Positions 36,259 to 59,174 of a DNA stretch of 64,000 bases are shown here, piece by piece. The translations under genes and the position numbers were made by a program. The DNA is from Halapricum desulfuricans. Its GTDB lineage: Archaea > Halobacteriota > Halobacteria > Halobacteriales > Haloarculaceae. Each line of letters starts with the position of its first letter. The first letter of the stretch is position 1. The notes beneath the pieces were generated by a model. The model was not told the DNA's origin, did no database searches, and saw nothing but the letters and a program-made list of their open reading frames with translations. The stretch is from the NCBI RefSeq assembly GCF_017094525.1, contig NZ_CP064788.1, positions 1,287,030 to 1,351,029 on the forward strand, read 5' to 3'.

Positions 36259-39174
36259 TTATACTGGAAACGTAAGGCAAATGTTCGCAACTTCAGGTGC
36301 GTGTGATATCACCCGGGCTTTCCGCTCTAACTCTTTACGCCGCTCATCAATTCGACGTTCCAGTTTGTTCAGTCGCTCTTCTTGACCGCGGATAGCGATC
36401 TCCATATCGGATCCCGCTTCGGCTTTCCGTTCGTACTCCTCGAGGAATTGTTCGATCCGCTGGCGTTCTGATTCGGCATATTCCTCGAGGTCATCCAGTT
36501 CCTGTTGCGTTTCTGCCCGCCGCTGTTCGTGTAATTCGTCCCGAAGTGACGCGACTCGCTGGCTGATGTATTGATCGGCCACTGCCCGGAGCTGATCCTG
36601 GTTCTGAACGAGCGAATGCACCGTCCCAGAATTGGGTGTGCCTTTGACACTGTTGCCCTGAACAACGCGTTTCCCCAGCCGCTGGTGGGGATCCTGATGA
36701 CTGTTGTCTACAAACACCGGAACCATCTCCTCGCGAACGACATCGCCTGTGCCGTCCTCAAATCGAATTCGGTAATTGTACGCAATGCCAGGCGTCTCGA
36801 CGAACGGGAGGAGTTTGAGCCCGACATCTCCGTGCTCGCTATCCAACACTTGCCGCATTAGTCGCTGCACGACTTCGTCGTCGGGAGAGAGATAATCGAT
36901 ATCGTCGTGATCGATCGCAAAGTCCCGGCTGAAGGTAAACGGCCCGTATTCCCCGTCGGTTTTGTAATCGAGTTGGTCCGGGAGTTCAGCCTCGAAGAGG
37001 TTGCTACCGACTTTCTCGATGCGGCCACCGAGCGCTTTGACACTCTGTTCGACGAATTCCCGGATATCAGCTTCTGTACCATAGACGTCTTCCGACTCGT
37101 CCATGACCTCCTGAATCTTCTCCCGGCTCTCCTGATCAAAGGTTGTCGTGTCGATCAAACTGCGCTCGTACCACTCCTCGAGAGTCTGCTGACGGTCGTC
37201 GATGAGATCCGCTAACTCTTCTTTGGTCGCGCTTGGCGGCTCCTCGTTCTGGATAGACTCCATGATGAGAGAATCGACGTTGATGTCGTCGAGCATACCC
37301 AGGACGTCAGCTGTACTTCCGAGTTTGTCCCGGATATTTTCGACTCTCTCCTGGAGCATTTCGAAGATCTCTCCCTCGCGGGTGTCCTCAAAAGAGAAGT
37401 TCCAGACCGTGACTTCCTTGTCCTGCCCGTATCGGTGAATCCGGCCGATGCGCTGTTCGAGCCGGTTCGGGTTCCACGGGAGTTCATAGTTCACCATGAT
37501 ATGGCAACTATGCTGGAGGTCGATCCCTTCGCTTGCTGCATCCGTCGCAAAGAGCAGCCGTGACTGCCCGTGGTTGAACTCTTCCTCGATGCGGGCCCGA
37601 TCGTCCTTATCGACGTCCCCGTGAATCACGAGGATTTCGTCAGCCCACGGTTCGTCTTCGACCAACTCGAGCAGGTAATCGAGCGTGTCCCGGTATTCAG
37701 TGAACAGCAAGAGCTTCTCGTCGGGCTGTTCTTCGAGAAGCTGCTGTATGTAGCGGCGTACTTTTTGGGCTTTCGAGTCAACCGAGATACCGTCGGCAAG
37801 AGAGACAAGGTCACGAAGGGTTTCGATTTCTTCCTCGAGTTGCGCATCGCTTTCAGTAACGGTCAGCCCGGCGATCTCCGTTTCAGCTTGCTGCTTGTCG
37901 TCTTCATCGAGATCCTCTCCGTCGAGATACGCCGAAGCTGCTTCGGACAAGTCAGTGCTCGTCGATTGTTCTTCGACGAGATCACGCAATCGACGCTTCA
38001 GTGTCGCTTCGATCGCACCAATGCTGCTGACCAGGCGCTTCTGCATGAGCGCCATTGCGAACCCGACGGCCGGCTCGTTCAGTTGTTCCGATCGATTGTA
38101 GACGTTCTTGACGTAGTCGGTAACAGCCCGGTAGAACTGCCGTTCCTCGTGTGTCATCTCAACCGGAACAGTATTCACCTCTCGGTCGGGGAAGATCCGG
38201 TCGCCGTTCTCGTCGTAGATCATTTGCTTTCCACGACGAATCATCACGCGATCGACGACGTCCTTGGAGAGTTCCTGGTTTTCGGCGACAAGGAACGGGT
38301 CGATATACTCGACAAGCGAGCGGAACGCTTCGCCTTTCCCGTCGTGTGGCGTCGCGCTCAACAGCAGGAGCGAATCGGAATTCCCCGCGACCCGCTCGAC
38401 CATCTTGGCTCGTTTGGCCGGTGAATCGCCACGCTTTGCGGCCTTGTGAGCCTCATCAACGACTACGACGTCCCAGAAAGCGTCATCGAGTGCGTTCTGA
38501 AATTCGTCCTGGCGGAGGAACGCCATACTGCCGATCAACCGCTGGTTATCTTGTCCCCAGATGTTGGTCTCCTCACCGAGACGGCGACGCTCGCCTTCGA
38601 CCCACTTCCGGTCAGCCAGCGTGAGGTCAATGTCGAAAAAGCGGTCCATATCTCGGATCCACTTCTTCTGAAGATGCGCGGGGACGATGAACAGCACCCG
38701 GTCTGCGCGGTTTCTGGCAGCGAGTTCCTTGAGGATGAGACCCGCTTCGATCGTCTTTCCGAGGCCAACGTCGTCTGCGATGAGCACGCGCTGGCGCAGC
38801 TTCTGCATCACCCAGTTGACCGCGTCAAGCTGATAGGGCTCTAATCGAACCAGCGAGTTCGAAATACTCAGTAGCTGACCCTGTTCGTGGGCAATCTGGA
38901 GACGGAGCGCTTGCGAGCGAAGATCGAACCACTCGGCAGACACAGCGTCGTGATCGGGATGGAGTTGATCGGTCGTGTCAGGTTCGAGTTTGCTGAGTTG
39001 GTCACGTTGCAGTTCGATCTCGACATCGTCGATACAGACCGTTTTCACGCCGTCGTCCTCGACATACACTCGCAGATACTCCAGGTCGCCAACAGAGTAC
39101 GTCTTGATCACTTCGGCAGCGTCGTCGTTCAGTCGGATCGAGTCACCCGGTTCGAGATCGTGTCTGAGACTCAT
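36259..39174 (-). CDS. brxHII: BREX helicase BrxHII
   Basis: A 971-residue SNF2-type helicase. Motifs: Q-like YQLDAVNWVMQKL, Walker A ADDVGLGKTIEAGL (about residue 130), DEAH box VVVDEAHKAAKRG (about 235), SAT-like LLSATPHDGKG, ATDAASEGIDLQ and the motif VI IGRIHRYGQ (about 570). A C-terminal coiled region (residues 870-960) follows. This matches BrxHII of BREX type 3/5 or the related DISARM DrmD. The start overlaps the pglZ stop (ATGA), and it is the last gene of the cluster. Context favours BREX over DISARM because pglX, pglZ, brxB and brxC are all adjacent. Confidence 0.87.
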   Translation of the reverse strand: MSLRHDLEPGDSIRLNDDAAEVIKTYSVGDLEYLRVYVEDDGVKTVCIDDVEIELQRDQLSKLEPDTTDQLHPDHDAVSAEWFDLRSQALRLQIAHEQGQLLSISNSLVRLEPYQLDAVNWVMQKLRQRVLIADDVGLGKTIEAGLILKELAARNRADRVLFIVPAHLQKKWIRDMDRFFDIDLTLADRKWVEGERRRLGEETNIWGQDNQRLIGSMAFLRQDEFQNALDDAFWDVVVVDEAHKAAKRGDSPAKRAKMVERVAGNSDSLLLLSATPHDGKGEAFRSLVEYIDPFLVAENQELSKDVVDRVMIRRGKQMIYDENGDRIFPDREVNTVPVEMTHEERQFYRAVTDYVKNVYNRSEQLNEPAVGFAMALMQKRLVSSIGAIEATLKRRLRDLVEEQSTSTDLSEAASAYLDGEDLDEDDKQQAETEIAGLTVTESDAQLEEEIETLRDLVSLADGISVDSKAQKVRRYIQQLLEEQPDEKLLLFTEYRDTLDYLLELVEDEPWADEILVIHGDVDKDDRARIEEEFNHGQSRLLFATDAASEGIDLQHSCHIMVNYELPWNPNRLEQRIGRIHRYGQDKEVTVWNFSFEDTREGEIFEMLQERVENIRDKLGSTADVLGMLDDINVDSLIMESIQNEEPPSATKEELADLIDDRQQTLEEWYERSLIDTTTFDQESREKIQEVMDESEDVYGTEADIREFVEQSVKALGGRIEKVGSNLFEAELPDQLDYKTDGEYGPFTFSRDFAIDHDDIDYLSPDDEVVQRLMRQVLDSEHGDVGLKLLPFVETPGIAYNYRIRFEDGTGDVVREEMVPVFVDNSHQDPHQRLGKRVVQGNSVKGTPNSGTVHSLVQNQDQLRAVADQYISQRVASLRDELHEQRRAETQQELDDLEEYAESERQRIEQFLEEYERKAEAGSDMEIAIRGQEERLNKLERRIDERRKELERKARVISHAPEVANICLTFPV

Positions 39175-41339
39175 TCTTGCGTGATCGTGACGAAATTCAG
39201 GACGAACTCCTGGGGGAGAACACCGCCGTGGTAGAAGCGAGCGTCCGGGAGCCCCTGATTTCGGAACCGCTGGATCGGGTCAGCGAGCGCACTGATCTTC
39301 GTCTCCCCATCGAGATAGCCGAGGTGAGCGTTCTCGTCGAGAAGCACACCGGGCGCGTCTTCGTCGATATCTTCCCCTGCCACCCATCGCCGCGTCACCT
39401 GCTCAGCCTCCGAAGGTGGATAGATGTCGTCGATATCGACGCTTCGCGGGAGCGAGACGAACCCGTGGTCAGCCAGGATGTACGCTCGGTCCCACTCCCC
39501 CTGATCGAGCTTCTCGCAGATGATCCGGGAGATCTTCTCGATGCGGTTTTGGAACAGGCCTTCGAAGTCGGTGAGTTCCCCCTCACCGGTCTTGTCGAGG
39601 TCGTTCCAGTAGTATGCGACGCGGGTCTCGCCCCATCCCGTCTCTTCGCTCTCGCTTTGCATGATGTAGCTCCACCCGTCGTCTTTCAGCAGTTGCTCCC
39701 GTCGGTAATTGGTGATTGTGTGTCCGTTGCGTCGGGGGACCAGCTCGCCGTCGTCAAGCTCGACGTTGAAACTGAACTTGCTGCCCGGGGTGAGTGCTGC
39801 CTTTCCGAAGTCGGTGTCGGAGGGGAACGCCCCGACCCAGGTATTCTCGTCAACTTCGAGACTCGGGAGGTCGCGGCGAATGGAGTCGGCCAGTTCGTGG
39901 GCGAGATCGAACCGTAGCGCATCGACGATGAACAGCACGACGCTCTGCCCACTCTGGAGGTGTTCCTTCTCTTCAGCGAAGAACTGGTGGGCGTGGTTCT
40001 GATCGACGAACGGTGAGCCGTCTTCGATCTGATCGACGACGAGATCGCCCAGGTCGCTGAGATACTCGAGATACCGCGACTCCACGAGCGACGTGCGCAT
40101 GTCAGCAAGCGTCGCCGTCGCGGGGTGTTCCTCCGGCAGGCCGGTCTCCGGCTCCCCCGAAACGACGAGGTTGAACACCGCGTTGTCAATCTGCCAGGTT
40201 CCGTTCTCGACGTCACCGTAGAGGGCAACGACGTCGTCGGTGTCGCCCCGCTGTTCCCAGGTATCGAGTTCGTTCGCCAGGTTGGCCACCTCGAGGGCCT
40301 GTTTCCAGACGTGGGTCCAGGCGACGTCACCGTAGGTCTGTTCGAGGCGCTGGTGGCGTCGGGTGGCGCGACTCGCGCAGGTCTCGTAGTCGCCAGCCCT
40401 GAAGGACTGCGTCCAGTCGTCCCAGAGTTCGTGTTCCAGGGACGCATCGACCGGGCAGTCGGCGAGTTCCCACGGGTCGTCGTGCGTGCGCAGGACATCG
40501 TGCCAGAAGCGAGCGTCCGGATCGAGATAGATCTGCGCCAGCTCCCGGGGGCGTTCGGCCTTACTCAGCACGGACTGGAGATTGGGCCTGGAGATGCCGA
40601 GGTCGGAACTCGATTCAGGCTGGTATGCTGGATCGAGACGTGACTTCTCGAGACCTTCGTCGACGAGCCACTCCGCGACTGCCCAGCGACGCGTCCGTTC
40701 GACGAGCGTGTGCTCGTCGGTGACGCCCTCGACGGCTGCAACCCCTTCGTCCACGAGGAGATCGCGGATCTCGGCGAGTTTGTCGCTCTCGTCGGTTTCG
40801 TCGAGGAGGTTCCCGACACCGTATTCCAGGACGAACGCAACGGGATCGTCGTGGCCGCCGAGAACGATCTGCGTCTGGAGGCTCCGGAGGGTTGGCAAAC
40901 CGCCCTCGCCGTTGAGAGCCTCGAAGAGGATGTCGGCGACCTGTTCACGTTCGCCTCCCTCGGTGTCGCCGTAGGCTGTCCGGATCGAGGCGGCCTGGAG
41001 GCGGTCGTTCTCGAAACAGCGGGCCGCGAGTTTGCCGATGTGTGCCTCGACGACACCGCCGGTGTTCTCGACGTCGCGGAACCAATCGACGTCGTCGGTC
41101 CGGGCCTGGGGGACGTACCAGACTGTCGTCTCGCGTGGGGCCTCACCACGGAGTTCGAGCGGGGACCGTTCGGCAGCCTGGAAATCATAGCCGAGGTCGC
41201 GGCTGACAGGTTCGACGATTTCCCGGAGGTCGCCGCCGTCGTCCCACCAGAGGACGATCGGGTCGTCGTCGGGTGCCTCTTCGATGGCATTCTCGATGGC
41301 GTCGCGGGCCGCCTGGTGAAGAGTCTTTGTCGCGGGCAT
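39171..41339 (-). CDS. pglZ: BREX alkaline-phosphatase-fold protein PglZ
   Basis: A 722-residue PglZ. The C-terminal phosphatase-superfamily core shows the metal-binding VVLFIVDALRFD (about residue 470), AYILADHGFV (about 623) and a late FYHGGVLPQEF. The N-terminal ~430 residues are the variable BREX part. PglZ is required for BREX methylation and restriction with PglX; its enzymatic role is not fully settled. It begins 2 bases after the pglX stop and ends overlapping brxHII. Confidence 0.9.
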   Translation of the reverse strand: MPATKTLHQAARDAIENAIEEAPDDDPIVLWWDDGGDLREIVEPVSRDLGYDFQAAERSPLELRGEAPRETTVWYVPQARTDDVDWFRDVENTGGVVEAHIGKLAARCFENDRLQAASIRTAYGDTEGGEREQVADILFEALNGEGGLPTLRSLQTQIVLGGHDDPVAFVLEYGVGNLLDETDESDKLAEIRDLLVDEGVAAVEGVTDEHTLVERTRRWAVAEWLVDEGLEKSRLDPAYQPESSSDLGISRPNLQSVLSKAERPRELAQIYLDPDARFWHDVLRTHDDPWELADCPVDASLEHELWDDWTQSFRAGDYETCASRATRRHQRLEQTYGDVAWTHVWKQALEVANLANELDTWEQRGDTDDVVALYGDVENGTWQIDNAVFNLVVSGEPETGLPEEHPATATLADMRTSLVESRYLEYLSDLGDLVVDQIEDGSPFVDQNHAHQFFAEEKEHLQSGQSVVLFIVDALRFDLAHELADSIRRDLPSLEVDENTWVGAFPSDTDFGKAALTPGSKFSFNVELDDGELVPRRNGHTITNYRREQLLKDDGWSYIMQSESEETGWGETRVAYYWNDLDKTGEGELTDFEGLFQNRIEKISRIICEKLDQGEWDRAYILADHGFVSLPRSVDIDDIYPPSEAEQVTRRWVAGEDIDEDAPGVLLDENAHLGYLDGETKISALADPIQRFRNQGLPDARFYHGGVLPQEFVLNFVTITQE

Positions 41340-41341
41340 GG

Positions 41342-42706
41342 TTACAAGACCTGATCATCGACAGTTTCCGGAACAATCTCGGCGTCGGCCAGCGGCGTGA
41401 CATTGATCTCGACGCCGTGTTTGTGGTTGGGCTGGTAGCCCGCGGTCGTGATTTCCGACAAGGCGCGGTCAGCCCAGTCAGATGGAATATCACTCGCCAT
41501 CGCCTCGGATACCTCTTTGATATCGTCTGCAAGATCCTGATAGTCATCGACGCCACTCGCCAGCTCGGAGATCAGTTGTTGGCGACGGGACACACCGTTT
41601 TCGCCGAGGCTCGTTTGATCCGGCTCCTCGAAGTTGTCGAAGTAGTAGGTCATGAACAGGATGCCGTTGCTGGCGTAGTGACTCGAGCCGACCAGATCCT
41701 CGTAGTACTCGAAGAGGTCGTACAGGTGGGCCTCGACTGGCTCGGAGCCATCATTCGCGTAGGCCTCGAAGGCGCTTTCGAGATCCTCGAGGGCGTCGAT
41801 CCACTCCTCGCGGTTCTCCTCAACCGTCTCGTAGAACGACGGACTGAACAGATCCTCCATGTCTACGTCCTCAAGAGCAGCGAGTTGATCCAGTGTCTCG
41901 AGTCGCTCGGCCGTCTGCGCTCTGAAGTTGGCCACTAGCTCGGCGGCCTCCGCGGCACGCTCCTGATTCTCCGCGGGCCACTCGCGGGGGTCGGGTTGGG
42001 CGAGTTCGGCCAGTCGATCTTCGAAGACGGCGATCTGCTCCAGCCCACTCTCACAGCGAGCGTACTCCGCAGCGGCTTCGGACTGCTCGGACGCCGACAG
42101 CGAGTCGTCGCTCCGGCGGCGGTTGGCCGCACTCCGGCGTTCTCGGAGCAGGGCCTTCCGCGGTTCCAGATAACGGTTCTGGAGGCGGTCGAAGACGTTC
42201 GCATCGAGTTGGTGGTAGTCCACCAGGCAGGCGAAGCCCTCCCCCTCAGGATCGGAGACGAGTCGCTCGGTGGTGAACCGCCAGAGGATCGGCGTGCGGT
42301 CGAACTTCGAGACGTGGTACTCGAAGAGGTCGTCTTCGAGCCACTGCCGGAGGTTCGGATACGCTTCTTCGTCCGCGGTCTGATTGCCGAGGACTTGATC
42401 GACCTCGGCGAGGCGGGCGTCAGCGTACTCGCCCCAGATGCGTTCGAACTCGGCTTCGAGATGGGTGAGGAGGTTGGCTTCACCTTCGACGTCGGAGATC
42501 GGGACGATGCCGTCGTCGGCTTCGTTGGCGGTCCGGAGTGTAAGATGGAGGAGGAGGTCTTTCACCATTCCTGGGAAGTTATCAGGACGGTCGGACACGT
42601 CATTGGGGTTTGATACTTTGCGGTCATCTGGTTGTTCAACAGTCCTGAGCCATATTTCCTGCTTAATCGCTTTACGTGTCTCTTCCCCAATACCCAGCGT
42701 TTCTGA
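41342..42706 (-). pseudogene. pglX: pglX, 3' part, cut off by the ISH3 element
   Basis: The C-terminal ~454 codons of pglX. The frame is open from the edge of the target duplication (42706) through SETLGIGEETRKAIKQEI and into the GC-rich tail. A GTG at 42598 could restart translation (418 residues, beginning SDRPDNFPGMVKDLLL). The end, YQPNHKHGVEINVTPLAD, is the sort of ending seen in PglX proteins, which is why I join it to the methylase at 44088-46925 rather than calling it a separate protein. Read on its own it would look like a hypothetical protein. Confidence 0.85.
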
Positions 42707-42711
42707 AACCT

Positions 42712-44087
42712 CAGTCGATCACATCGACAGCCGCATAATCCCGTTCAGTAAGCGCTGAATCTGTTTGGTCTGTGCTTGGACTGTCTCGAAGTAGGACGAA
42801 CGGTGAGTCTCGGTGATGAGGAGTCGCTGTCGGCGGCGGACCGCCGCCGACGCGACAGTGTCGCCACTCACGATCGCTGTCCAGACCAGTGGACAGCTAC
42901 CGGAAGAACCGGTCGTCGAGTGACTGGTTCGCTGGAACAGCCCTGCGCACACCGAGCGCTGTCCAAGCGGCCCGCAGCACCATCTCACAGAACTCCGTGA
43001 ACGGCCAGTTCCAGAGGCGGCGCCCCCCGCGGCGGGGCGCCGCCACGTACTTCCAGTGGAGATACCGCCAGCTGTTCTGGAGCAGCAGACTCACGACAAA
43101 CATCACCAGCCGTAGTCCAGCGTCCTGAGAACTGGTGAACGCGAGGCTCTGTCTGGCTAAGCGGTAGCTGGACTCGATGCCGAAGCGCTTGCTGTAGTGT
43201 TCTCGCGCATCCCGTGGCGTGTCGATAAACGGCGCGTCAGCGGCGTAGCCGTGACGCGCCACCCCGTGTTCGTCGTATCGTCCCTGTTGGTAGACGCAGT
43301 CGATGAACACGGGGAAGGTCACTTCGCCGGCGAGATTGTGTTCGATCTCGCGGCTCCAGCCTGTGCTGAGCTCATGTTGAATCGTCTCGCCCCACTCGAC
43401 GATCGGCATCACGTAGGCGTAGTTGTGCGCGTACAGCAGTCCGAGACAGGTGCTGTTGTAGAAACCGCGATCGAGGTAGACGGCCTTGACGCCGAGGTCA
43501 AGGCCGTCGAGGAGTTCGAGAAACTCAGTGAGGACATCGCTGGTGGTGTCGCCAGCGACAAGCTGGCGCACCGCCAGCGTGTACCGCTTGTTACGTACCC
43601 GCGCGTAGAGCGTCGCATACGCGTGAAACGTCGTTGTTCCCCGTTTCGCCTCCGAGAAGTACAGCGCTTCTGTCTCGTCTTCGTCACCGTAGTAGGGATC
43701 GAGGTGGAGGTCGGCGACGACCTCCACCGGTCGATCCGGCAGTGTCTCAAGCGCATCTCGTTGCAAGAGCGTGTCTCCAACCGCCTCAACAATATCAAGG
43801 TCGAACTGGTCTGTGAGATGTCCCCGAACGGTGTTAGCGTGCGGTGAGTCAGCGGTCGATTCACAGACGTGATTGATCGAGGTCCCGCCGGCGCTGGCGC
43901 CGGCGAGGACCTCGTATAGTTTCTCCGTGGTGACTTCGACGTTCTCGCCGAGATCTATTGCCAGTTCCTCATCAAGACTGTTGACGACAAAATTAAGCAG
44001 GTGCTCTTCCTCTATCTCGCTGTCTGCTTCGGTAGGCTTCACACCATACCCAAGCAGACACTTCCTCTAATCCGATGTGATCGACTG
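42712..44087 (-). mobile_element. ISH3-family insertion sequence inside pglX
   Basis: A 1,376-bp element. Terminal inverted repeats: CAGTCGATCACATCG at 42712-42726, and its reverse complement at 44073-44087. The 5-bp target duplication AACCT is present at 42707-42711 and 44088-44092. Size, repeat length and duplication fit the ISH3 family. The element carries one intact transposase, and its last bases supply the new stop codon (44067-44069) for the pglX 5' part. Confidence 0.93.
42897..44042 (-). CDS. ISH3-family DDE transposase
   Basis: A 381-residue transposase starting at GTG 44042 (MKPTEADSEIEEEHLL). Candidate catalytic acids are in VVADLHLDPYYG (Asp), VYLDRGFY (Asp) and RFGIESSYRLARQ (Glu), in the spacing of ISH3/IS4-like enzymes. 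Length is typical (about 380-390). No stop or frameshift is visible, so the element may still be mobile. Confidence 0.9.
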   Translation of the reverse strand: MKPTEADSEIEEEHLLNFVVNSLDEELAIDLGENVEVTTEKLYEVLAGASAGGTSINHVCESTADSPHANTVRGHLTDQFDLDIVEAVGDTLLQRDALETLPDRPVEVVADLHLDPYYGDEDETEALYFSEAKRGTTTFHAYATLYARVRNKRYTLAVRQLVAGDTTSDVLTEFLELLDGLDLGVKAVYLDRGFYNSTCLGLLYAHNYAYVMPIVEWGETIQHELSTGWSREIEHNLAGEVTFPVFIDCVYQQGRYDEHGVARHGYAADAPFIDTPRDAREHYSKRFGIESSYRLARQSLAFTSSQDAGLRLVMFVVSLLLQNSWRYLHWKYVAAPRRGGRRLWNWPFTEFCEMVLRAAWTALGVRRAVPANQSLDDRFFR

Positions 44088-46925
44088 AACCTCTCGATCT
44101 ATCTCTTCTGCAAGCTTTTCGATTTCTTTTCGCTGAGTGAGATCGGATTTCTGCGCTTTTCGTGCGAGTTCTAGAAGAGAACTTTCGGCATCTCCAGTAT
44201 TAAATAGCTCTTCAGGAGTTTCGGTGATTGATTCTATATGATCATGGTTAGAGTGGAAAAAGCCAGAAGCGGCGGAATTTGGGAGTAATTCCGGCCCAAT
44301 ATAAAATGGACTCCTGAAGTCATGGACGCGTTGTTCGATAAAAAGTGTATGCTGCTCCCGTGATTTTTTCCTGATAGATTCACTATCTTCAAGCTCCCTA
44401 AACCAGGGAAGCATACCGATATAACCAGACTCCCACTTCCGTCCCGGTGTCAAGGAGAGTGCCAGGCTGTGGAATAAATCTGAATTTAATGCCCCAAGTA
44501 GGACCCATGCAGAGACCCCTTCTTCAGGGAATAGCATATTGCTTGCATGCCCGAAATAACCTCCACTTGGATAGTAGCCAAATCGACGTCCAGTCCTTTT
44601 GATATATGCCCAAGTAAGTCCCTCCCTCGTCTGATAATCCATATTACGGAGGACAGCACTTGAAGAACGGGCGACTTGTGCACCATTTTCACTCCAATTA
44701 ATTACCTCATCCACTTGTGGACGTATCCAAACATCTCCACCTGCGTTGGTGAACGGCTTAAATTGCTTATCAGCAATCTCCCACTGCTTGCGGATAAACC
44801 GATCATTATTTCCTGTTTGTAAACCGACCTTTACATCTCCAATGCCTTCCCCTTCTATCCCAGGAACTGTTGGATCAATTTTTAGATTTGTATCGTGTAA
44901 CTTTCGAATTTCTGGTGGGAGTGAATAGCATATAGAAGAACCTGGGACAGAATGAAATTCGGACATTTCAACCTCAAAATATCGTTGTATATCGTCGTCA
45001 GACACCCCGAAGGCTGATTGAAGATATTTTGTCTCTTTATTCGATTTTTCTACATCGTGCAAGCGAATAAATGTGCCAATTTCTTGTTGTTTTGAGCTTT
45101 TACGGACTACTGTTCCTACGGTGGCAACAGTCGCATTATCTAGGATTCCATATCCGAATTCAGAAAGGAAGTCAAATGATCCTCTCTTTCCGATAAAATC
45201 GGCTCGGAATGGTTCAAATGTTTGACTAAAGAGGAACGAACGTGGGACCAGCATACCAACACGCCCTGCATCCTTTGTAAGATAATCACCAACTTCAAAG
45301 AAGTTAATATAATATTGGGGACTATACTTATAATTAGACTTAACGTATTCCCGTACTTCTTCTGGCATCCTCCCCCGCGACCCGTACGGCGGATTCATCA
45401 ACGCCACATCATAGTCTTGCGTCAAAACCACCAGCAGGTGCAGGAAACTCCGGAGGTTCTGCTCGCCAAATGAGTCCGACGTCTGCTCTTCGACGGCCCG
45501 TTGCAGGGCCTTCAAAAAGGAATGCAACGACTGATGGGCAGCCTCGTGATAGTCGGTGAGTTCAGATTGCGTTTTACTCGAATCGAACGCCTCCTCGAGG
45601 GTTCCCTGCACGTCGAGGAGACTCCCCAGGGCCTCGGTCGTCTGGAACGTCTCGATGATCTCATCGAGGGCGTCCCGAAGGTCGGTTCCCTCGCCAGTGA
45701 TGTCGTCGAGCACCGCCTTCGCCTCCTCGATCTCTGCGACGCGGTTGTCCGCAGTGACGATCCCGACGTTGGGCATCTGGAAGTCGTCTGCGCCCTCCGC
45801 TTCGGCACGACCGCGGGCCTTCAGATAGAGGTTGAACGCCGCGAGTTGGGCTGCCCGGAGGTCGATGTCCACCCCGTAGAGGTTGTTCTCGAGGATCTTC
45901 GCCGGGACGTCCTCCCGGGGAACGTCGGGGCGTTCGGTCCACCAGATACGCTCGAGGATGTCGAACGCGTACAGTAGGAAGTGCCCGCTGCCACACGCCG
46001 GGTCGATGATCCGGAGCTCGGACGGATCGTCGAACTCGGGGGCCGCCTGGTCCTCGTCGTCGGGGATGAGGTACGTGGCGATGCTGGGGACGTCCGGGGC
46101 GGCCTCGGGCGTCGTGGCTCGTTCCTTGCGCTCGTCGATAGAGAGCGCCTCGGGTTCCGGAACGGTGTCTTCCTTGCCCGTGGCTTCAAGATAGAGCTTC
46201 CCCAGGGAGTTGTCGGTGAGCATCCGGACGACCCAGTGGGGCGTATAGAACTGGTTCGCCGGGCCGACGTCTCCCGGCTCGAGCGTGTTCTTGGCATCAA
46301 GGGCCTCAACGACGGGCCGGTTGTAGTATTCATAGACCCACCCGAGCACGTCGTCAGCCCGCCAGACTTCATCGGGAACCTCATCCAGCATTCCAGCCAG
46401 GTCTTCGTAAGTATCGACGTCCGGATCGACGAGACTGTACGGCGTGTCGGTATCGAACAAGATCTCGATGTCCTTTCCCAGTTCCTCGCACTTGTTCTGG
46501 TAAGCCGTCAGAATCGCCTCGTCCTCCAGCAGAAATTCCTCGTGGACGAGCGTCTCGGCAGCAGGCGTCAGGCCGTTCTCTTTGAAGACGGTGGCCTCCT
46601 CGTCGATGAAGTCCCGGACTTCCATCGTCCGGAGCGCAGCGAGTCGATTGACGATCGTGTAGCCGACGCCCGTGACGTACTCCGCGAACGCTTCGTCCCA
46701 GGTGTGGCCATCGACCGCTTCGAGTTGAATGGCCTCGACGAGTTCCTGGATGTCCTCGTCCAGTGCTTCAGGCTCGTCCGGTTCCTCGTCGAGCCCCTTC
46801 TGGGTGAGCTGGAACTCGACGTTCTGCTCGACGCGCTCGCGCATGTCCGCGACGACATCCTCGAGGTGTTCGCGCTCTGCTTTGTCCAGTTGCGCCTTCC
46901 GTTGGGAGAGAGAATCGCTTGCCAT
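44067..46925 (-). CDS. pglX: pglX, 5' part: BREX adenine-specific DNA methylase, truncated by an IS
   Basis: 952 codons as it stands, of which the last six (QSITSD) come from the ISH3 end; native sequence ends at position 44088. SAM motif I is DPACGSGHFLLYAFDIL (about residue 306) and the catalytic motif is LMNPPYGSRGRM (about 508), so the methylase core is complete. From about residue 520 the DNA becomes AT-rich and the protein enters the target-recognition part. Without the IS the gene would encode 1,400 residues. BREX PglX methylates a non-palindromic adenine site to mark self DNA. A methylase lacking its C-terminal third is probably inactive, which is inference. A TATA-like site (about 46960) precedes ATG 46925. 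Confidence 0.88.
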   Translation of the reverse strand: MASDSLSQRKAQLDKAEREHLEDVVADMRERVEQNVEFQLTQKGLDEEPDEPEALDEDIQELVEAIQLEAVDGHTWDEAFAEYVTGVGYTIVNRLAALRTMEVRDFIDEEATVFKENGLTPAAETLVHEEFLLEDEAILTAYQNKCEELGKDIEILFDTDTPYSLVDPDVDTYEDLAGMLDEVPDEVWRADDVLGWVYEYYNRPVVEALDAKNTLEPGDVGPANQFYTPHWVVRMLTDNSLGKLYLEATGKEDTVPEPEALSIDERKERATTPEAAPDVPSIATYLIPDDEDQAAPEFDDPSELRIIDPACGSGHFLLYAFDILERIWWTERPDVPREDVPAKILENNLYGVDIDLRAAQLAAFNLYLKARGRAEAEGADDFQMPNVGIVTADNRVAEIEEAKAVLDDITGEGTDLRDALDEIIETFQTTEALGSLLDVQGTLEEAFDSSKTQSELTDYHEAAHQSLHSFLKALQRAVEEQTSDSFGEQNLRSFLHLLVVLTQDYDVALMNPPYGSRGRMPEEVREYVKSNYKYSPQYYINFFEVGDYLTKDAGRVGMLVPRSFLFSQTFEPFRADFIGKRGSFDFLSEFGYGILDNATVATVGTVVRKSSKQQEIGTFIRLHDVEKSNKETKYLQSAFGVSDDDIQRYFEVEMSEFHSVPGSSICYSLPPEIRKLHDTNLKIDPTVPGIEGEGIGDVKVGLQTGNNDRFIRKQWEIADKQFKPFTNAGGDVWIRPQVDEVINWSENGAQVARSSSAVLRNMDYQTREGLTWAYIKRTGRRFGYYPSGGYFGHASNMLFPEEGVSAWVLLGALNSDLFHSLALSLTPGRKWESGYIGMLPWFRELEDSESIRKKSREQHTLFIEQRVHDFRSPFYIGPELLPNSAASGFFHSNHDHIESITETPEELFNTGDAESSLLELARKAQKSDLTQRKEIEKLAEEIDREVQSITSD

Positions 46926-50195: not shown

Positions 50196-53100
50196 CTATT
50201 CTTCCTCGATCAGGACAACGCTCCCCGACTCCAACGTATCGAGACGCTCTTGCACATCTCGAATCCGATCCAGTACAGTTTTCGACTCCGACAGGAGTTC
50301 GTTCACGCGCTCTTCGCTCGGCCGCTCGTCGGAATCGACGACATCGGTGACTTCGTCGGTCACATCTGTGTTCGGTAATTCGTGTCGTAGTTCTTCGGCA
50401 ACAGACTGGAGTTCCGCCCAGGCATCGTCATCTGCATCCGGCGGTTTCGGATCTTCAGCCTGCTCGATGAGTTGTCGCACCCGCTGTTTCGTTGGCGGTC
50501 GAGAAGACGACAGTGCGGTCTCGACGGTTTCCGTTGTCGGTGAGTCCGGATGCTCGTCTCGAAGCTGCCTTCCAGCTTCCTGCAACTGCGACCAGAGACT
50601 GTCACCGTCAGTAGCGGCGAACAGTTCTCGGGCGCGCTCGTAGGCCGCTGCCTGTTGATCGACCGTCGTGTCAATCAATGTCGCTTCCGTCACCTGTTCT
50701 TCTTCCCACGCCATCTCGAACACCGCTTCGAGATCATCGAAGACGAGTTCATCGAACTCCCCCGTCGCCACGTCGAGAATGCTCCGAACCGACGCTTCGT
50801 TCGACCGAAGCCAGTCCGTGAGAGCATCACAGACCTCACTCGGGGCAGAAGCGGAGATTGCCTCGCCAGTAATGCGACGGTATTGCGTCGAGAGTTCGTC
50901 CACGCGGTGGGTTTCGGCGTCTTGGATTCGAGACTCAACGGTCGCAACGCTGGGGACAGTGCCACTCTCGGCCGTTGTTTCCATACGGGCGGTGATCGAG
51001 GCGCTCGGGTACAGTGCCTCCATCGTCCCCAGTTCGTCGGCAAACTGCTCCCACAGCGTTGCCCCCTCGTCCACGATGCCGAAGAGTTTCCGGGCATTTG
51101 CGAACGTTTCAGCCTCTTCAAGCGTCTTCTCGAGATCACCGTCAGTATCGAGATCAGCTGTAGAGAGATCCTCACCAGCAAGGGCGGGATCGATCGTCTC
51201 TTCGAACGCATCGAGTGTCACGTCGAACTCCCGGGAGACGCCCTTCAGAGTTCGCTTCACCGTCGCACTGTTCTGGGAGACCCACGCACCGAGTTCTGCC
51301 AACCATTCGTCTGGCCCATCCCCGGCTGGCTCCTCGTCGAGAACGGCAGTGACGATATCCTTCACCGTCTGTTGGTCGAATATCTCGACGTCGAACCGAA
51401 CCTGTAACGACGTCAGCCCTCCTTTCGTGCGAACCTGTCGGCCGATCGCAGCCGGATCAGTCACGTATTCGGTGTCCCGTTTGAGGGCGACTGGTTTGTT
51501 CGACGTAGCGAGTGTGATGAGTAGGGCTGCAATCGACTTGCGGGGCGTTCCGCGGTAATCGCCGTTCGCCGTCCGCGTTTGCTGGAGTACCGTCTCGACG
51601 TCTACTGCCTTCTGCGATTCGTATTTCTCGATGAAATCGTGACACCAGCCCGTGTCAGCTATCTCTCTGTTATTCGTGTCAACGCCGAGCAGTGCGGCAT
51701 CTGCATCCGAAAGGGGCCACTCGCCACTGCCGCGGAAGAACTGGGCCATCGCCTTCGCGTCGTCTACCTCCACGAGCGGCTGTGTCAACGTCTTTCGGGA
51801 CGCACCGAAGACCGACTCGATCTGATCTTCGACGACTTGTTCCAGAACGCTGGAACGTGCACCACGCTGGCCGTGGACGGTATAGACGGTTGCGTCATCG
51901 AGGATCGTAGCGATGGACGACTCGATTTCACGCCGATCGGCCCGATGTTCGCGCTCGAGTTCCTCGTGAGATTCGGTCTCCGTGTCGAGCACTTTCTCCA
52001 TCCCGATGAAATTCCGTATCCGATCGACCAGCGTCTCCGGCACGTCGATCGTAATCAGAATGTGCTCACCGGCGTCGTGGTGGTCGTTCGCGTCTTGCCA
52101 GATCTCGACTTGCTCGGTCACCGTCTCGGAATCCTCAGCGAGGACGCGAACATTCAGGGAGTCGTATTCGTGCATAGACGTCCGGCCGACGGGCTCGAGA
52201 ATGGAGTACGCGTATCGGAGCGGAACGAGACGCTGGTCCCCGATATCGACCTCGTGACGGGTCCCGTCGCTGTGGAAGAAGTCGTCGTTCTCCCGTAATC
52301 GCGTTTCCAGCCATGCTGACAGCTGATGGGGCGAGATCTCGCCAGCTTTGTCCTGAGCGCGGCTGAGAATGCTCTCTTGCTCTTCGGAGACGATCGTGTA
52401 GACCTCGTCTCCCTGATCAGTCGTTTCGGTGAGGACCTTCTGCTTCTTCACGAGCGTCTCCAGACCGGATTGCGTTTCTTCGACGACGTCATCGAGAGAC
52501 GTCGATACGTCGTCGATCATTAACCGGGCGAGGTTTTCCGGAGTCGATGGGACGCCACCAGCCTGGTTCAGCAGATAGAGCGCTTTCGAGAGACGTACCT
52601 CCCAGACGTCTTCGCCACCGTCAAACGTCGGAATCAGCGTATTGTCGATCATCTCCTGAACCCACAACGGCACGTAGGTCGTCTCTTCGACTAGGAGATC
52701 GAACAGGACGTCCCACGGGACGATCCGACCGGCTTCCTTCGACGACCAGCTGAACTTGGTGAACAGCGACCGGACCAGCACGAGCAGTGCCCGGCCCTGA
52801 ATGTAGTCTCTATCGGTGGTCCGACCCTGGGTGATGAGCGTCTGCATCACCGATCGGAGCAGTGTGAGATCGTATTCCCGGAACGGGTATGACTCGACGG
52901 GATCAGGATCGGCACTGGCGACCGAAGCGTACGTCTCAAGTGAGAGATCCGGCATCGACTGCAAGAGCGACGTGACAGTGTCCTCGCCGTCAGGCGTCGA
53001 TTTCTGGAGCCAACGCTTTCGAACGATGATTTCCGTGTCCGCGCCTTCGAGGCGAACTTGCTGATGGGTCCAGTGATCCGCCGGTGGCTCACCGATGAGT

Positions 53101-54032
53101 TGCTGGCGCGTATCCGGAAGCGAGTACTGCCCCGTCGTGACGACGACCGGATTCGGTCCACGTTGCAGCGCCTCCATCGTTTCTTCGAACTCCCGGTATC
53201 TGTGACTGCTGTCACCGACGAACAGCGCGACCTCGTCGAGGCCGAGCAACAGTTCCGTTCGTGTACTGCCGTCGTTGAGTGCATTAGTCGCCGTCTCGAC
53301 ACGGGAAACGAGTTCGTCGGCGTCGAATGACTCCGGTTCGACATCGTCTTCTGCGGCCTCGATAGAGGCCTTCACTCCCTCTCGGGTGTCCAGTTCCGTC
53401 CCGGTCGTTTCGGCCATTGCCGGCAACGCCTCGTACAGCCAACTGCGGAGGGACGCACGCTCGTTGTGCACGTCTTCGAACGTCTTCCCCTGATGCTCGA
53501 ACTCTTGGAGCGCGTCCCAGACACCGTCGTACTCCATATCGAGCGTCCACGCCCATTCAAGCAACCAGTTCGGGTCGGTTCGATATCCCAATTCACGACC
53601 GATAGCCTCGAAGATCATGAACGGCAACGGCGGCTCTTTCGAGGCATCCCGGTCGAGCAAATTGAGGAAAACCGGCTTCAAACGATCGACGTGAGAGTCC
53701 CTGATGGCGCGTTGGAGTTCGTCGAAGCCCGGCCACTGGTCGGCGAGTTGATCCCCGAGATATGCGAATTCCGAGTCGTCGTCGGCGAGGAAGCCGACGA
53801 GTTTCAGAAGGTGTGTCTTCCCCGATCCAAACGTTGCATGCATGTAGAGGAAGCGTTCGGCTTCGCTCGGATGGGTTTCGACGACGTCGCCGAGCTCCTC
53901 AAGAACCCGTTTCGCACTGTCGGTTTCATAGAACTCTCTGACGTCAGTCTCGGCTCGTTCACGGGCGTTGACCTTCTGTACCTCTTCGAGTGGTCGCGTC
54001 GGATCGCTATGAAAGAGATCACTGATTGTCAT
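50196..54032 (-). CDS. brxC: BREX large ATPase BrxC/PglY, copy 2
   Basis: A 1,278-residue P-loop protein. Walker A is HATFGSGKTHLLKL (about residue 70) and Walker B is LLLGLDEVALFVGD (about 265). A long helical C-terminal region follows, rich in Gln/Glu and with repeated helices between residues 1000 and 1200. The start overlaps the brxB stop (ATGA). It is clearly paralogous in layout to the other large ATPase of this cluster, but the two are very different in sequence. Two BrxC/PglY ATPases in one locus is a property of the haloarchaeal type 5 arrangement, as I recall it. Confidence 0.85.
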   Translation of the reverse strand: MTISDLFHSDPTRPLEEVQKVNARERAETDVREFYETDSAKRVLEELGDVVETHPSEAERFLYMHATFGSGKTHLLKLVGFLADDDSEFAYLGDQLADQWPGFDELQRAIRDSHVDRLKPVFLNLLDRDASKEPPLPFMIFEAIGRELGYRTDPNWLLEWAWTLDMEYDGVWDALQEFEHQGKTFEDVHNERASLRSWLYEALPAMAETTGTELDTREGVKASIEAAEDDVEPESFDADELVSRVETATNALNDGSTRTELLLGLDEVALFVGDSSHRYREFEETMEALQRGPNPVVVTTGQYSLPDTRQQLIGEPPADHWTHQQVRLEGADTEIIVRKRWLQKSTPDGEDTVTSLLQSMPDLSLETYASVASADPDPVESYPFREYDLTLLRSVMQTLITQGRTTDRDYIQGRALLVLVRSLFTKFSWSSKEAGRIVPWDVLFDLLVEETTYVPLWVQEMIDNTLIPTFDGGEDVWEVRLSKALYLLNQAGGVPSTPENLARLMIDDVSTSLDDVVEETQSGLETLVKKQKVLTETTDQGDEVYTIVSEEQESILSRAQDKAGEISPHQLSAWLETRLRENDDFFHSDGTRHEVDIGDQRLVPLRYAYSILEPVGRTSMHEYDSLNVRVLAEDSETVTEQVEIWQDANDHHDAGEHILITIDVPETLVDRIRNFIGMEKVLDTETESHEELEREHRADRREIESSIATILDDATVYTVHGQRGARSSVLEQVVEDQIESVFGASRKTLTQPLVEVDDAKAMAQFFRGSGEWPLSDADAALLGVDTNNREIADTGWCHDFIEKYESQKAVDVETVLQQTRTANGDYRGTPRKSIAALLITLATSNKPVALKRDTEYVTDPAAIGRQVRTKGGLTSLQVRFDVEIFDQQTVKDIVTAVLDEEPAGDGPDEWLAELGAWVSQNSATVKRTLKGVSREFDVTLDAFEETIDPALAGEDLSTADLDTDGDLEKTLEEAETFANARKLFGIVDEGATLWEQFADELGTMEALYPSASITARMETTAESGTVPSVATVESRIQDAETHRVDELSTQYRRITGEAISASAPSEVCDALTDWLRSNEASVRSILDVATGEFDELVFDDLEAVFEMAWEEEQVTEATLIDTTVDQQAAAYERARELFAATDGDSLWSQLQEAGRQLRDEHPDSPTTETVETALSSSRPPTKQRVRQLIEQAEDPKPPDADDDAWAELQSVAEELRHELPNTDVTDEVTDVVDSDERPSEERVNELLSESKTVLDRIRDVQERLDTLESGSVVLIEEE

Positions 54033-54655
54033 CGTTGGAGATGCACCTCCCGGATCGGACTATTGATCTGATGGGCTGGGTAGTAGTGTCGTGACGGGCC
54101 GCCGAAGAAGCTCAATTTCCCGCCGACAACGTCACCCGGGAAGGGAATACCGATGGTGGACTTGACGTTTCGCCGGTCGAGTTCGTCGAGGAGTTCTGAC
54201 GCACGACTGAAGGGGTACAGGCTTCCGAGGTTAAGCAGGAGCAGTACGTGACTCTGTGTCTTCACCTTCTCTTCGGCGACCGCCTCTTCGAGTATTTGTT
54301 GGACGAGTTCCGCGGCAAGGCGGTCTTGCATCGTCTCCTCGATGCGTTCTCCGGCGGAGACCTCATCCTCGAACTCGGAAAGCGGTTCACCGAGATCGAC
54401 GAGAAGTTTGTACACGTCAGTCTTGGGGAGCAATTCGTCGAGCCAGATCGGTTGGACGGTCACGCCGTCGGGAATCGCTGGTGCTTCGGCCGGAGTGGTT
54501 GCCCAGGCTTCCAGACGCTTTGCTGTCCGGTGTTCGACTGCGGGATCGACAGCGGCAATGACGAACGGGTTCCGAATCCCACGCTGACCACGGGCGAAGG
54601 TACACAGCTTCTCCTTGAACGAGCGATACGGTGACGCACTCGTCGTTTCGCTCAT
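54029..54655 (-). CDS. brxB: BREX protein BrxB
   Basis: A 208-residue DUF1788-family protein. The N-terminus SFKEKLCTFARGQRGIRNPFVIAAV, the middle LLLLNLGSLYPFSRASELLDEL and the C-terminal FPGDVVGGKLSFFGG and HYYPAHQI match the BrxB pattern. Function is unsettled; BrxB is required in type 1 BREX. It overlaps the brxC genes on both sides as ATGA, so all three are translated as a unit. Confidence 0.85.
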   Translation of the reverse strand: MSETTSASPYRSFKEKLCTFARGQRGIRNPFVIAAVDPAVEHRTAKRLEAWATTPAEAPAIPDGVTVQPIWLDELLPKTDVYKLLVDLGEPLSEFEDEVSAGERIEETMQDRLAAELVQQILEEAVAEEKVKTQSHVLLLLNLGSLYPFSRASELLDELDRRNVKSTIGIPFPGDVVGGKLSFFGGPSRHYYPAHQINSPIREVHLQR

Positions 54656-57600
54656 CGAATGATCACCCCCTCATCGACGTCACTGATATCGAGTTCACCG
54701 TCTTCTACGAGACGTTGGAGACGTTGGTTCAGTTTCTGACGGTCGTCGGGAACGATCCCGATCCGATCGACATCTGACGGCCCACGAGTCTCGACTATCG
54801 AAGAAAGGGTGTCGAGTCGGGTCGCTAACTCCTGGGGATCCGGTTCGACGGCCATTTCGAGCGATTCCAGATCCGAGATCGTATCAGCAGCGTCGATGAA
54901 CCCTTCTGCGCCGCCATCACCACCGAGCGTCGTGATCGCGGAATCGATCGACTGGTACCACTGCTTGCACTGGCGCATCGGTGTGATATACGTTTCTTCG
55001 AAGGCTCTATGGACGCCAGCCGGGAGATCGGTCGCCGGTACAATCCACAGATGGTCGTCGATCCGCTCGATCAGATCGGTCAGTTGCTTCTCGTCCGTGA
55101 ACGACGCCCACGCCCGTTCGAGTTCGGGAAGCGGATCTGGAACGAATTGCTCGGAGAACGTACTCCAACCATCCGTCGTCCACCAGTCACCATCATAGGT
55201 CACAATTGCACTCCTGCGTTCTTCGAGCGCTTGTTGTGCCTGCTCGTCGATCCAGTCAAATTCCCGCTCTCCGATCACCAGCAGCGCATCGAGACGGTGA
55301 AGGGTAGACAGTCGGCGATTCCATACGTCGGTTACCTCGGCAAGCCACTCATCCGTGGCGTTCGTCTGCTCGATCACGTCCTCGATCCCATCTCCTTGGG
55401 ACTTCACTGTCGTTAGGCGATCTTCCGTTGCCGCGATGCGATCGTCTAAATTCGTAGCGAACGCTTCCAGCAACTCTGTGACGACCGCCGTTTGCACGTC
55501 GGTATCGGCAACTAGAGTTACGTCTTCGCGGAGGCCACTGAGCTTCGCGTTAATTCGCTGATTGGCTTCCTGAAGGTGAATCAGTCCGTCAGCGACGGTT
55601 TCGGTCGTCTCCTTGAAACCGCCATCCTCCAGAAGTTTCCCGAGCGGTTTGCGTGGGAGGAGTTTGAGCATCGTCGTCGCTACATTGTCGAGATCGAGTA
55701 CGGCCTCATCTTCGAGGGTGTTCCCGTTTTCGTCGATCGGAAGTAGCCGTCCGTTTCGGCAGAACCCCCAGATGATCGCACAGAGAGCAGGCCGGGCGTC
55801 ATCGTAGAACGGTTTCTCTTCGACGACACCGTCGAGAACAGTGGTCATCTTGAGTCCACTCTCCCGATCCTTCAGCTGTCGCCCAACGAGAGCCATCACG
55901 TTTCGCTGGATCGTCTGCTGGCCTTCGCTCGTTTCGTCATTCGATGTAGGCACTTGAATTTTTTGCGCCCACGTCGGGAGCGGCTCCGTACTATCGAGCT
56001 CGCGTAATTCTTGGAGTCGCTCCTCGTTGACCTGGAGCATCATCGGGTGGAAATCGTCGGGGTACGAGATATCGACGGCCGTCTGAACTGCGCTCGACAG
56101 AGATTCGATATCAGATCGGTCCTTGACCGTGAACGAGCCGCGTCCCATTGCACTCTCCAGTTTGCTCCGGACAGCGTTCGCACGCTGTTCGAGATCCTGG
56201 TTGACTGCTGGCGGGGCATCGTGACTAGCGATCGCATCGCGGAGGGCCCACCACTCGATCAAACTGTTGCGCAAGTCCTCGATTCCGTCTGTGTCGATGT
56301 CCCAGTAGAGTGTCTCCTCGTCCATTCTCTCTTCAGTAGCATTCGGACGAAGTCCCTGGATCGTCACATCGACATCAAGTCCACCGTCCGTCTCGAGACT
56401 CGTTTCGAGACCGATATCGTCAACGCGGAAATGATACGAGACCGGGTATTCATCACCGGACTCACCATATGGCACAGACTCCGGGAGAGAGAGGTCTTGG
56501 GTGATCCGCTCCCAGAGGTGTTCATCGAGGGTCGAAAGAATGTCGTCCCAATCTGGGTTCGCTTCGTTTTGCTCTGTCTCCTCGTAGATGGTGCGTTCTT
56601 CTTGCGTTGCGAATCGATAGCGGGGACCGCTCTCTTCCTGAGCCGGTCGTATGAATTTCTCGAGTCGATCGAGGGATTCCTCGACACGGTTAGTCGTGCT
56701 GATCCAGGACTGCCCGTTGAGATCAGACATGACCGCGACGGCAAGGTTCCCTTCGTTTTGCGGAACGATATCCGGCACGTGTTTTAACAGCAACACTGCC
56801 TTTGCAACGCGGAGGTCGAACTCGCGCACGTCGCTATCACTATCGTTGACTGCATCGACGATACCCGTCGTTTCGTCTGTTCCCTCCAAGACGCGCATAT
56901 CCTGTGGAAGGATCTCCCGAAGCTCGGGCTTGATCAGCTCGAAGAAGTCTACGATCGAGATGAGGTGATCCGCTTCGGACTCATCCACCCATCGCTCGAG
57001 CAATCCATGCATCAGCGCGAGGATGGCCCGTGCCGTCCCAGAGAAAATCGATTTTGCAGGATCATTTGCCTCACGACGCAGATTGAACAGGATTTCCAGG
57101 AAGAGCGGCGCGTGATAGGGAAGGAACGGATAGTACTTGACGAGTTCTTCGTCATCGATCTCGTCAAGAGGGGGCTTGGTATTCCGTTTGATCTCATTGT
57201 AGACCAGCGACTCGGTCGGTTTTACATCGGCGTCGTCGAGGATTCGACGAACCGCGTCGGACCCCTGCTCTGACTTCTGGAAGAGTCGGCGTTTGGCGAT
57301 CTCACCGACGTGTTTGCTTGGGAGTTGGTATCGGTGAGGGAATCGATCCTTGACGATGCTGAAATCAGCGCCATGTGCCGCAAACTGTGGCTGAACGTCT
57401 TCGATTTTTGCCTGTGCGGTTGCGACTAACTGGATATCGCCGTCCCCGATTTCGTCGACGTTCTCTGCAAGCGTCTGAAGTTCGGTCAGTCGCTCGAAAT
57501 CCGTCCCGATGAAGAGACTCACTTCGTCAAGTAATAATACCAGCTTCACGGGTTCGCCGAGCGCTTCTTCGCGCTCCTGCCGAAGCGCTTCGAGTCTGCT

Positions 57601-58398: not shown

Positions 58399-59162
58399 CA
58401 CGTTGACTCACCTCCGGTAACCCATCCGTACGTCTCACTGGTTGGCCGAAGTTGGAGACCGCCAGGCAACTCGACAAACTCCCATGCATCCGTCCGTGCC
58501 GCTCTGTCGTATAGTTCGTCCCAGCGATCGCTCGGCTGGAACAGATAGAGCAGTCCGATCGGCGACTCAAACCAGTCGTCATCGCCTTCTTCGTAGGCAT
58601 ACCCCATCGAGACAAGAAGAGGAATTGCACCGAGAGAGGGTGGTTGCTGAGCGACCGTCTGTTGCTCCTCGAGAACGCCGATATCTCGCATTACGGATCT
58701 AAACCCTTCATACCAGCGTTCGAGGGTAGAGTCGGCGTAATCCAGTGGGGTACCATCAGCGTACTCGAATTGATCGAGAATCGATGCGAGTGTTTCATTC
58801 GAGAAGTCAAGCGGGTTCTGCTGATTCGTTGAGAGACGTTGCGCGTACTGATGGACAACGTAGCGAACGAGTGGATCGTCAGCGACGAGATACAGATAGA
58901 GGACTTGGGCTTTGTCCCGCGTTGTGCCACACGAAGCTAACACTGCCGGGAGAACACTCGGATTCGGGAGGCTCGAAGGCGCATTTTTGAACCGTGAAGT
59001 AAGCACTCGAAAGATCTTCTGTGAACTCCCCCGAGTACTGCGATCCGAACGACGTTCGCCGAACCAGACCTCCTTTACCTCGTTCCAGTTTTCATGGGCT
59101 TGATACAGCTGTGCGATCTCTTGGGCCCGATCAACGAGAAGACCACACATTGTCAGATCCAT
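58398..59162 (-). CDS. brxA: BREX protein BrxA-like (DUF1819-like)
   Basis: A 254-residue protein. The start is set at ATG 59162 (MDLTMCGLLVD), because a textbook AAGGAGG ribosome site sits five bases upstream (59168-59174); the frame extends 25 codons further without one. Family-like pieces are STRGSSQKIFRVLTSRFKN, QVLYLYLVADDPLVRYVVHQ and STLERWYEGFRSVMRDIGVL, which follow the BrxA/DUF1819 pattern. BrxA is a small DNA-binding BREX protein. This is the first gene of the cluster; similarity is judged by eye, so a distant type-specific homologue is possible. Confidence 0.7.
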   Translation of the reverse strand: MDLTMCGLLVDRAQEIAQLYQAHENWNEVKEVWFGERRSDRSTRGSSQKIFRVLTSRFKNAPSSLPNPSVLPAVLASCGTTRDKAQVLYLYLVADDPLVRYVVHQYAQRLSTNQQNPLDFSNETLASILDQFEYADGTPLDYADSTLERWYEGFRSVMRDIGVLEEQQTVAQQPPSLGAIPLLVSMGYAYEEGDDDWFESPIGLLYLFQPSDRWDELYDRAARTDAWEFVELPGGLQLRPTSETYGWVTGGEST

Positions 59163-59167
59163 CGTAA

Positions 59168-59174
59168 CCTCCTT
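59168..59174 (-). promoter_or_regulatory. Ribosome-binding site of the BREX operon's first gene
   Basis: AAGGAGG on the minus strand, five bases before ATG 59162. Strong Shine-Dalgarno sites are uncommon in haloarchaea, where most genes are leaderless, so this decides the brxA-like start and implies an mRNA with a leader. Confidence 0.7.

Follow-up and report, generated by a model that had tools for sequence, protein, structure and literature searches.

In the haloarchaeon Halapricum desulfuricans, the gene pglX of a type 5 bacteriophage exclusion (BREX) locus is split by an insertion sequence (IS) of the ISH3 family. We put at about 80% the probability that this insertion knocked out pglX of a complete BREX-5 locus, as part of a recurrent pattern in which mobile elements strike this gene. 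The window, i.e. the whole stretch of 64,000 nucleotides that was analysed, covers positions 1,287,030 to 1,351,029 of contig NZ_CP064788.1, and the coordinates given below are counted from its first base. The host genome forms a single 2.89-Mb contig, and the family of this archaeon is shared with Haloarcula and Halorhabdus.

The interrupted gene lies on the minus strand. Its 5' part (44088..46925, 946 codons) carries the N-terminal, methyltransferase (DPACGSGHF and NPPY motifs; Pfam Eco57I and N6_Mtase) and target-recognition domains and matches positions 1-950 of NF033454, the NCBIfam BREX-5 PglX model of 1,404 positions, with 1540 bits; the open reading frame (ORF) now present (44067-46925) comprises these 946 codons plus 6 from the end of the IS, i.e. 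952 amino acids. The 3' part (41342..42706, 454 codons) contains the C-terminal domain and matches NF033454 positions 988-1404 (720 bits) and positions 994-1412 of the PADLOC model PDLC02518; its longest ORF (41342-42598, 418 amino acids) starts at a GTG located 36 codons past the junction. When the element and one copy of AACCT were deleted in silico, 4,203 minus-strand bases (46925 to 41342) were joined into a single frame of 1,400 residues (946 + 36 + 418 codons) with one terminal stop, exactly as the sequence-only reading of this DNA had proposed. The same reading had taken the "hypothetical gene" at 41342-42598 for the end of PglX. Since both pieces, together with 57 uninterrupted homologues (~1,400 residues each; counted by hand in 391 Halobacteria genomes), fit one BREX-5 PglX family, the 418-residue ORF is, judged by its sequence, the PglX C-terminus, and the idea that this protein is always separate from the methylase was rejected. 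A PglX family search of the whole genome returned these two pieces (matching positions 1-951 and 924-1404) and no second BREX-5 pglX. One mark of a functional BREX system, an intact PglX, is therefore missing here: the gene is split at codon 946 and the genome holds no further copy.

BREX type 5 was reportedly described by Goldfarb et al. in 2015, and its gene set is recognisable in the window: a type-5 PglX (interrupted), a type-5 PglZ, brxA, brxB, a duplicated brxC/pglY and brxHII. The six BREX genes other than pglX are full length and without internal stops. All are encoded on the minus strand: brxHII (helicase; 36259..39174; PADLOC PDLC02504 6-971/971), pglZ (39171..41339; NF033444, 1074 bits), brxC/pglY copy 2 (50196..54032; PDLC02473 1-1275/1277), brxB (54029..54655; PDLC02467 and Pfam BrxB), brxC/pglY copy 1 (54652..58401; PDLC02474 2-1223/1223) and brxA (58398..59237; PDLC02456 4-275/280).

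The insertion sequence (42712..44087, minus strand, 1,376 bp) sits after codon 946, with its transposase gene co-directional with pglX. As had been noted from the sequence alone, it is bounded by 15-bp terminal inverted repeats (CAGTCGATCACATCG; 42712..42726 and 44073..44087) and flanked on both sides by the target-site duplication AACCT (42707..42711 and 44088..44092); our repeat search gave 16 paired bases, the sixteenth being the flanking T/A of the duplication, so the repeat proper is 15 bp long. The transposase (42897..44042, minus strand, 381 amino acids) is intact and matches NCBIfam NF033541 with 361 bits (cut-off 225), and both this match and the inverted ends with a short duplication place the element in the ISH3 family. 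No Rfam family was found within it in an Rfam scan. Elsewhere in the genome there is a second copy (G000:C1:1177725-1179100), 100% identical and with its own duplication AGTCT, and a third (G000:C1:778110-780630; L003, L004), 91% identical, with the duplication AATCT and itself interrupted. The insertion into pglX is recent, because the second copy is identical and all other genes of the locus are intact; the earlier claim of a recent hit with no other lesion is thus borne out, and the element is probably still mobile.

The window is one case among several. We surveyed the 63 genomes of our sample in which BREX-5 PglX was matched (one strain per species; G and L numbers are our labels for genomes and loci) and found pglX genes hit by an IS or by a miniature inverted-repeat transposable element (MITE) in seven clear cases, in which inverted ends and both halves of the gene are present, and in five probable ones. 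Besides the locus described here (ISH3, AACCT), the clear cases are those of G065 (L042; IS5/IS1182-like, duplication ACAGAGTTC), Halorhabdus tiamatea pHTIA (G078, L043; IS66 according to the RefSeq annotation), Natronosalvus hydrolyticus (G253, L046/L047; two contig ends, duplication ACTGCAAA), Halobellus captivus (G335, L048/L049; two contig ends, duplication ACAAT, plus a nonsense codon), Halogeometricum pallidum (G358, L062/L063; ISH3-type, duplication AACAT, in a complex region) and Natrinema pellirubrum (G090, L044 3373-3520; a MITE of about 148 bp whose duplication is inexact at one end). In the probable cases (G018, G169, G350 (ISH3-type), G082 and G113) an IS end or IS gene abuts a cut pglX of which only one half is present; they comprise Halobacterium salinarum DSM 3754 (L058), Halorubrum trapanicum DSM 12287 (L059), G350 (L078), G082 (L077; IS4/ISH8) and Halomicrobium katesii (G113, L050/L133; IS1595). 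Outside the sample, Halosimplex aquaticum has pglX residues 1-370 followed by an IS1595 gene. The hits come from five or more IS families and range from residue ~100 to residue ~1010.

Across these 63 genomes, pglZ (~62 copies), brxHII (57) and both brxC genes (~60 copies of each) were found free of IS insertions. As 30% of the examined length belongs to pglX, the binomial probability of the observed distribution is 2e-4 for the clear cases (7/7) and 5e-7 for all of them (12/12), values that serve as guides only, the pglX copy number (76) being a hand count and the species being related. With this distribution, pglX is a preferred IS target across haloarchaeal BREX-5 loci.

Several other candidate breaks were discarded. 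The apparent internal stops of brxC in G253 and G348 are terminal stop codons, and the breaks in control genes are not due to ISs: G114 has an adapter at the contig start, G048 has overlapping contig ends, and in G126 and G141 the two pieces lie at opposite ends of a single contig that was regarded as circular. For pglX itself, G129 was set aside owing to assembly doubt (an N-broken run plus a duplicated stretch) and G267 because no IS end could be recognised where its contigs stop (residues 1020/1023); the frame shifts in pglX of Natrinema thermotolerans, which come with a two-piece brxC match, are likely sequencing errors, and the second pglX copy of G016 is broken by a nonsense codon and not by an IS.

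The position of the break within the protein bears on its likely effect. Residues ~501-1000 of the restored PglX correspond to the target-recognition part and the spacer, and they differ from the rest of the gene both in GC content (0.40-0.46 vs 0.57-0.68) and in identity to the nearest homologue (49-74% vs 80-99%). The portion of this GC-poor, divergent stretch upstream of the element (residues ~501-944) occupies 44093..45425 on the minus strand, and the stretch continues past the element to about residue 1000, so the IS lies in its 3' part. The target-recognition part is variable in BREX type 1 also (PMC11842806), and here residues ~501-1000 look like an exchanged specificity cassette. By profile alignment, the insertion site corresponds approximately to residue 937 of E. 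coli BrxX, within the C-terminal domain (838-1205; PMC11842806). The homologous region of the G318 protein (81% identical), modelled from residue 560 to the end with a mean predicted confidence (pLDDT) of 65 that is better in the C-terminal part, had significant PDB matches to BrxX/PglX entries only; in this model the site would lie towards the end of a long helix (33 residues) in the spacer, and the junction of the restored frame falls within a conserved helical stretch. Judging by these assignments, the part cut off is the conserved end of the protein (the last ~454 residues), and the N-terminal piece still has both its methyltransferase and its recognition domains.

Modification and restriction both take their specificity from the PglX subunit (PMC11341690), whose C-terminal region is required for DNA binding (PMC11341690, PMC11842806), and the removal of BrxX/PglX from the E. 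coli BREX system abolished protection and methylation alike (PMC6326788, Table 1). Since PglX is needed for methylation and for defence in the BREX systems tested, the likeliest state of the Halapricum locus would be modification-minus and restriction-minus, with no toxic mismatch. The recently transposed ISH3 element would have disrupted pglX, leaving a 952-residue product without the conserved C-terminal part; a BREX complex lacking a whole PglX would neither modify nor restrict, and defence would be off with no self-attack while the remaining six genes stay intact. Loss of pglX would then be harmless. The sequence-only reading had raised the concern that missing methylation combined with active restriction could be toxic. 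This worry finds little support overall, given that loss of PglX ends both activities in E. coli and that PMC11341690 points in the same direction; the one contrary hint is that attempts to delete pglX from Salmonella failed in three contexts (PMC9009780).

That hint belongs to a set of points which weigh against a harmless knockout within a recurrent pattern: pglX loss is evidently not always harmless, the functional evidence comes from BREX types 1 and 2, and in the literature we found no functionally dissected type 5 system. A truncated PglX might also keep one activity, since some C-terminal mutations of the Salmonella protein are restriction-minus and modification-plus (Wozniak 2023, as cited in PMC12707154). 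As for the pattern, copies could be counted only approximately and some of the breaks coincide with contig ends, and on plasmid PHS3 of Halobacterium salinarum R1, outside the sample, it is brxHII and not pglX that is broken (L147 20360-25800), by an insertion that contains ISH1 and has ISH8-type ends and a 10-bp duplication (GACCACGAGG); a different H. salinarum plasmid, NZ_CP146626.1, carries an uninterrupted brxHII. Finally, the stretch of pglX hit here is GC-poor (0.45, within a region of 0.40-0.46), which raises the question of whether transposition chemistry could suffice, ISs landing in pglX because its recognition stretch is GC-poor and without any selection. Four of the seven clear sites (this one and three others) do lie within the lower third of the local GC of their gene, whereas those of G065, H. 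tiamatea and H. captivus are near the middle of the GC range of their own genes, and neither the spread of the hits along the protein nor the variety of IS families fits such an account well. We consider chemistry alone rather unlikely and favour selection helped by a landing preference. Loss of the specificity subunit would disarm both activities at once, and what remains after the loss of another subunit may be unbalanced or harmful; losses of this second kind would be less tolerated, because in type 1 BREX pglZ and brxB deletions grow slowly (PMC9122589).

Three other states of the locus have to be compared with a plain knockout. The exact duplication, the single intact frame left once the element is removed, the intact transposase and the identical second copy would all suit a reversible switch, in which frequent precise excision, or polyploid cells carrying both alleles, would yield BREX-on and BREX-off cells (IS-toggled phase variation); phase-variable pglX is known elsewhere (PMC9122589, PMC6326788), and frequent IS events have been published for a haloarchaeon (gvp 1-5%, bop 0.01%; PMC10134880). 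These frequencies, however, concern insertion and not excision, the empty allele is not seen in the single-contig assembly, and the hits of several relatives, which have lost half of pglX or gained a nonsense codon (H. captivus), bear the mark of one-way decay, so that we regard a switch as improbable. The break follows the methyltransferase and target-recognition domains and falls close to where the long spacer helix ends; this, together with the restriction-minus, modification-plus changes in Salmonella, would allow the 952-residue product to methylate with BrxB, BrxC and PglZ while being unable to restrict. What has been lost, however, is the conserved end of the C-terminal domain, which makes the DNA contacts in E. 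coli (R1145, K1152; PMC11842806), and the changes of this type cited in PMC12707154 are mutations and not, as far as is known here, truncations this large; there is little chance, in our view, that modification alone persists. Least credible is a PglX working in two pieces, with the 418-residue ORF translated and complementing the N-terminal piece. It would be helped by two open frames, a well-conserved C-terminal half and a break at a helix end, but a stop (TGA) that the IS contributes immediately ahead of the junction would force a restart at the GTG at 42598 or later, with at least 36 codons lost, a scan with a bacterial consensus (the host being archaeal) found no promoter-like site in the IS, and the intact homologues are single-chain. 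We think it very unlikely.

The element itself has a second unusual feature. It contains five perfect hairpins (arms of 9-12 bp, loops of 1-7), vs 0.06 expected, four of them inside the transposase gene (43016-43044, 43479..43508 with 12-bp arms and a 6-base loop, 43703-43728 and 43886-43905) and one past its end (42829-42851). Such hairpin ladders were noted at 42712-44087, L148, L149, L042, L043, L077, L078 and L074, which include the transposase genes of the IS5/IS1182-like element of G065, IS66 of H. tiamatea and ISH8 of G082. In two haloarchaeal plasmid stretches, transposase genes have 41 hairpins in 14.1 kb vs 4 in 51.2 kb of other genes, a 37-fold difference (~3/kb vs 0.08/kb), and in bacterial transposase genes of similar GC content, on Sinorhizobium pNGR234a, there are none. 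Permutations preserving the protein and codon usage gave 0.18 hairpins against the 4 of this ISH3 gene and 0.08-0.33 against 2-8 in ten other genes, ISH7A being an exception to the excess. In an alignment of 14 ISH3 elements, pairing within the four hairpins of the gene is 98%, against no more than 55% once their positions are slid, and three of the four show compensatory changes: three pairs are altered on both sides, in 13 sequence cells vs 4.9 in shuffles (0/500 shuffles as high), although these double changes may represent few events on the tree. Two of the three require amino-acid changes in the alignment, e.g. Ala to Val opposite Gly to Asp.

In H. salinarum, IS transcripts are abundant and transposases mostly undetected, and the transposition of ISH3 and IS4 is under post-transcriptional control (PMC10134880). 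Taking this into account, we see an even chance that the ladders of ISH3, IS4/ISH8, IS5-like and IS66 elements are selected beyond the protein sequence and hold back transposase mRNA by their structure, through ribosome or RNase control; alternatively, the hairpins may act at the DNA level. If the former is true, unrelated haloarchaeal IS families would share post-transcriptional control of transposition, for which we found no description in the literature searched, and the ladders would bear on the question of why abundant IS transcripts in Halobacterium give almost no detectable transposase (PMC10134880).

Some further observations were made. The duplications of ISH3-type elements (AACCT, AGTCT, AATCT and AACAT; window, L002, L003/L004 and L062/L063) all start with A and end with T, which suggests a weak target preference, and the DNA interrupting the third ISH3 copy, of about 1.1 kb, is also rich in hairpins. 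The ends of the N. pellirubrum MITE resemble those of the IS5/IS1182-type elements of G065 and N. hydrolyticus. Between brxC and pglX of the window lie a dGTPase-like gene with an HD domain (47458-48801, on the strand opposite to pglX) and a helix-turn-helix (HTH) gene (49085-50035); other BREX-5 loci carry different genes in this slot. Two pglX genes in the same orientation, a few kb apart, occur in G016, G083, G096, G114, G135, G168 and G298, the second copy in Haloarcula argentinensis (G016) having its nonsense codon at 780. Salinivenus lutea (L136), a non-archaeal halophile, has a BREX-5-like PglX that is ~48% identical, which suggests transfer between domains.

Disrupted pglX genes as such are known from earlier work (PMC9122589): they have been reported for Antarctic cyanobacteria (PMC9716671) and, according to a citation in the same paper, for Deep Lake haloarchaea. 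The interruption as such is thus published and our locus adds one case; a gene-by-gene comparison of IS insertions for BREX-5 was not found in the literature searched. Such a comparison leads to a testable rule, that the inactivation of haloarchaeal BREX-5 by mobile elements falls mainly on the specificity gene. The rule would explain how a defence island can persist although one of its genes is dead, and it suggests that pglX is a tolerated off-switch. It also has a practical side, since automatic annotation will call such loci BREX systems though they are probably inactive.

In comparison with known systems, the locus has the same gene set as BREX type 5 (NF033454 PglX, NF033444 PglZ), with all genes recognised by type-5 or BREX models; unlike in the standard arrangement, pglX is split by an IS and the dGTPase-like and HTH genes stand between brxC and pglX. 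The element is like ISH3B and ISH27-2 of Halobacterium and ISHla1 of Halorubrum in transposase family, length and inverted ends, and its three copies in this genome have 5-bp duplications as in ISH3-family elements, but it shares at most ~91-93% DNA identity with known ISH3-family plasmid copies and is therefore a distinct member. As in interrupted or phase-variable pglX described elsewhere (PMC9122589, PMC9716671), an intact pglX is lost while the rest of the BREX locus is retained; the agent here is a clean ISH3 insertion with a target duplication, known from one assembly. The inactivation of bop and gvp in Halobacterium (PMC10134880) is another parallel, in that haloarchaeal ISs yield loss-of-function variants of dispensable genes, the difference being that in Halapricum the target is a defence gene.

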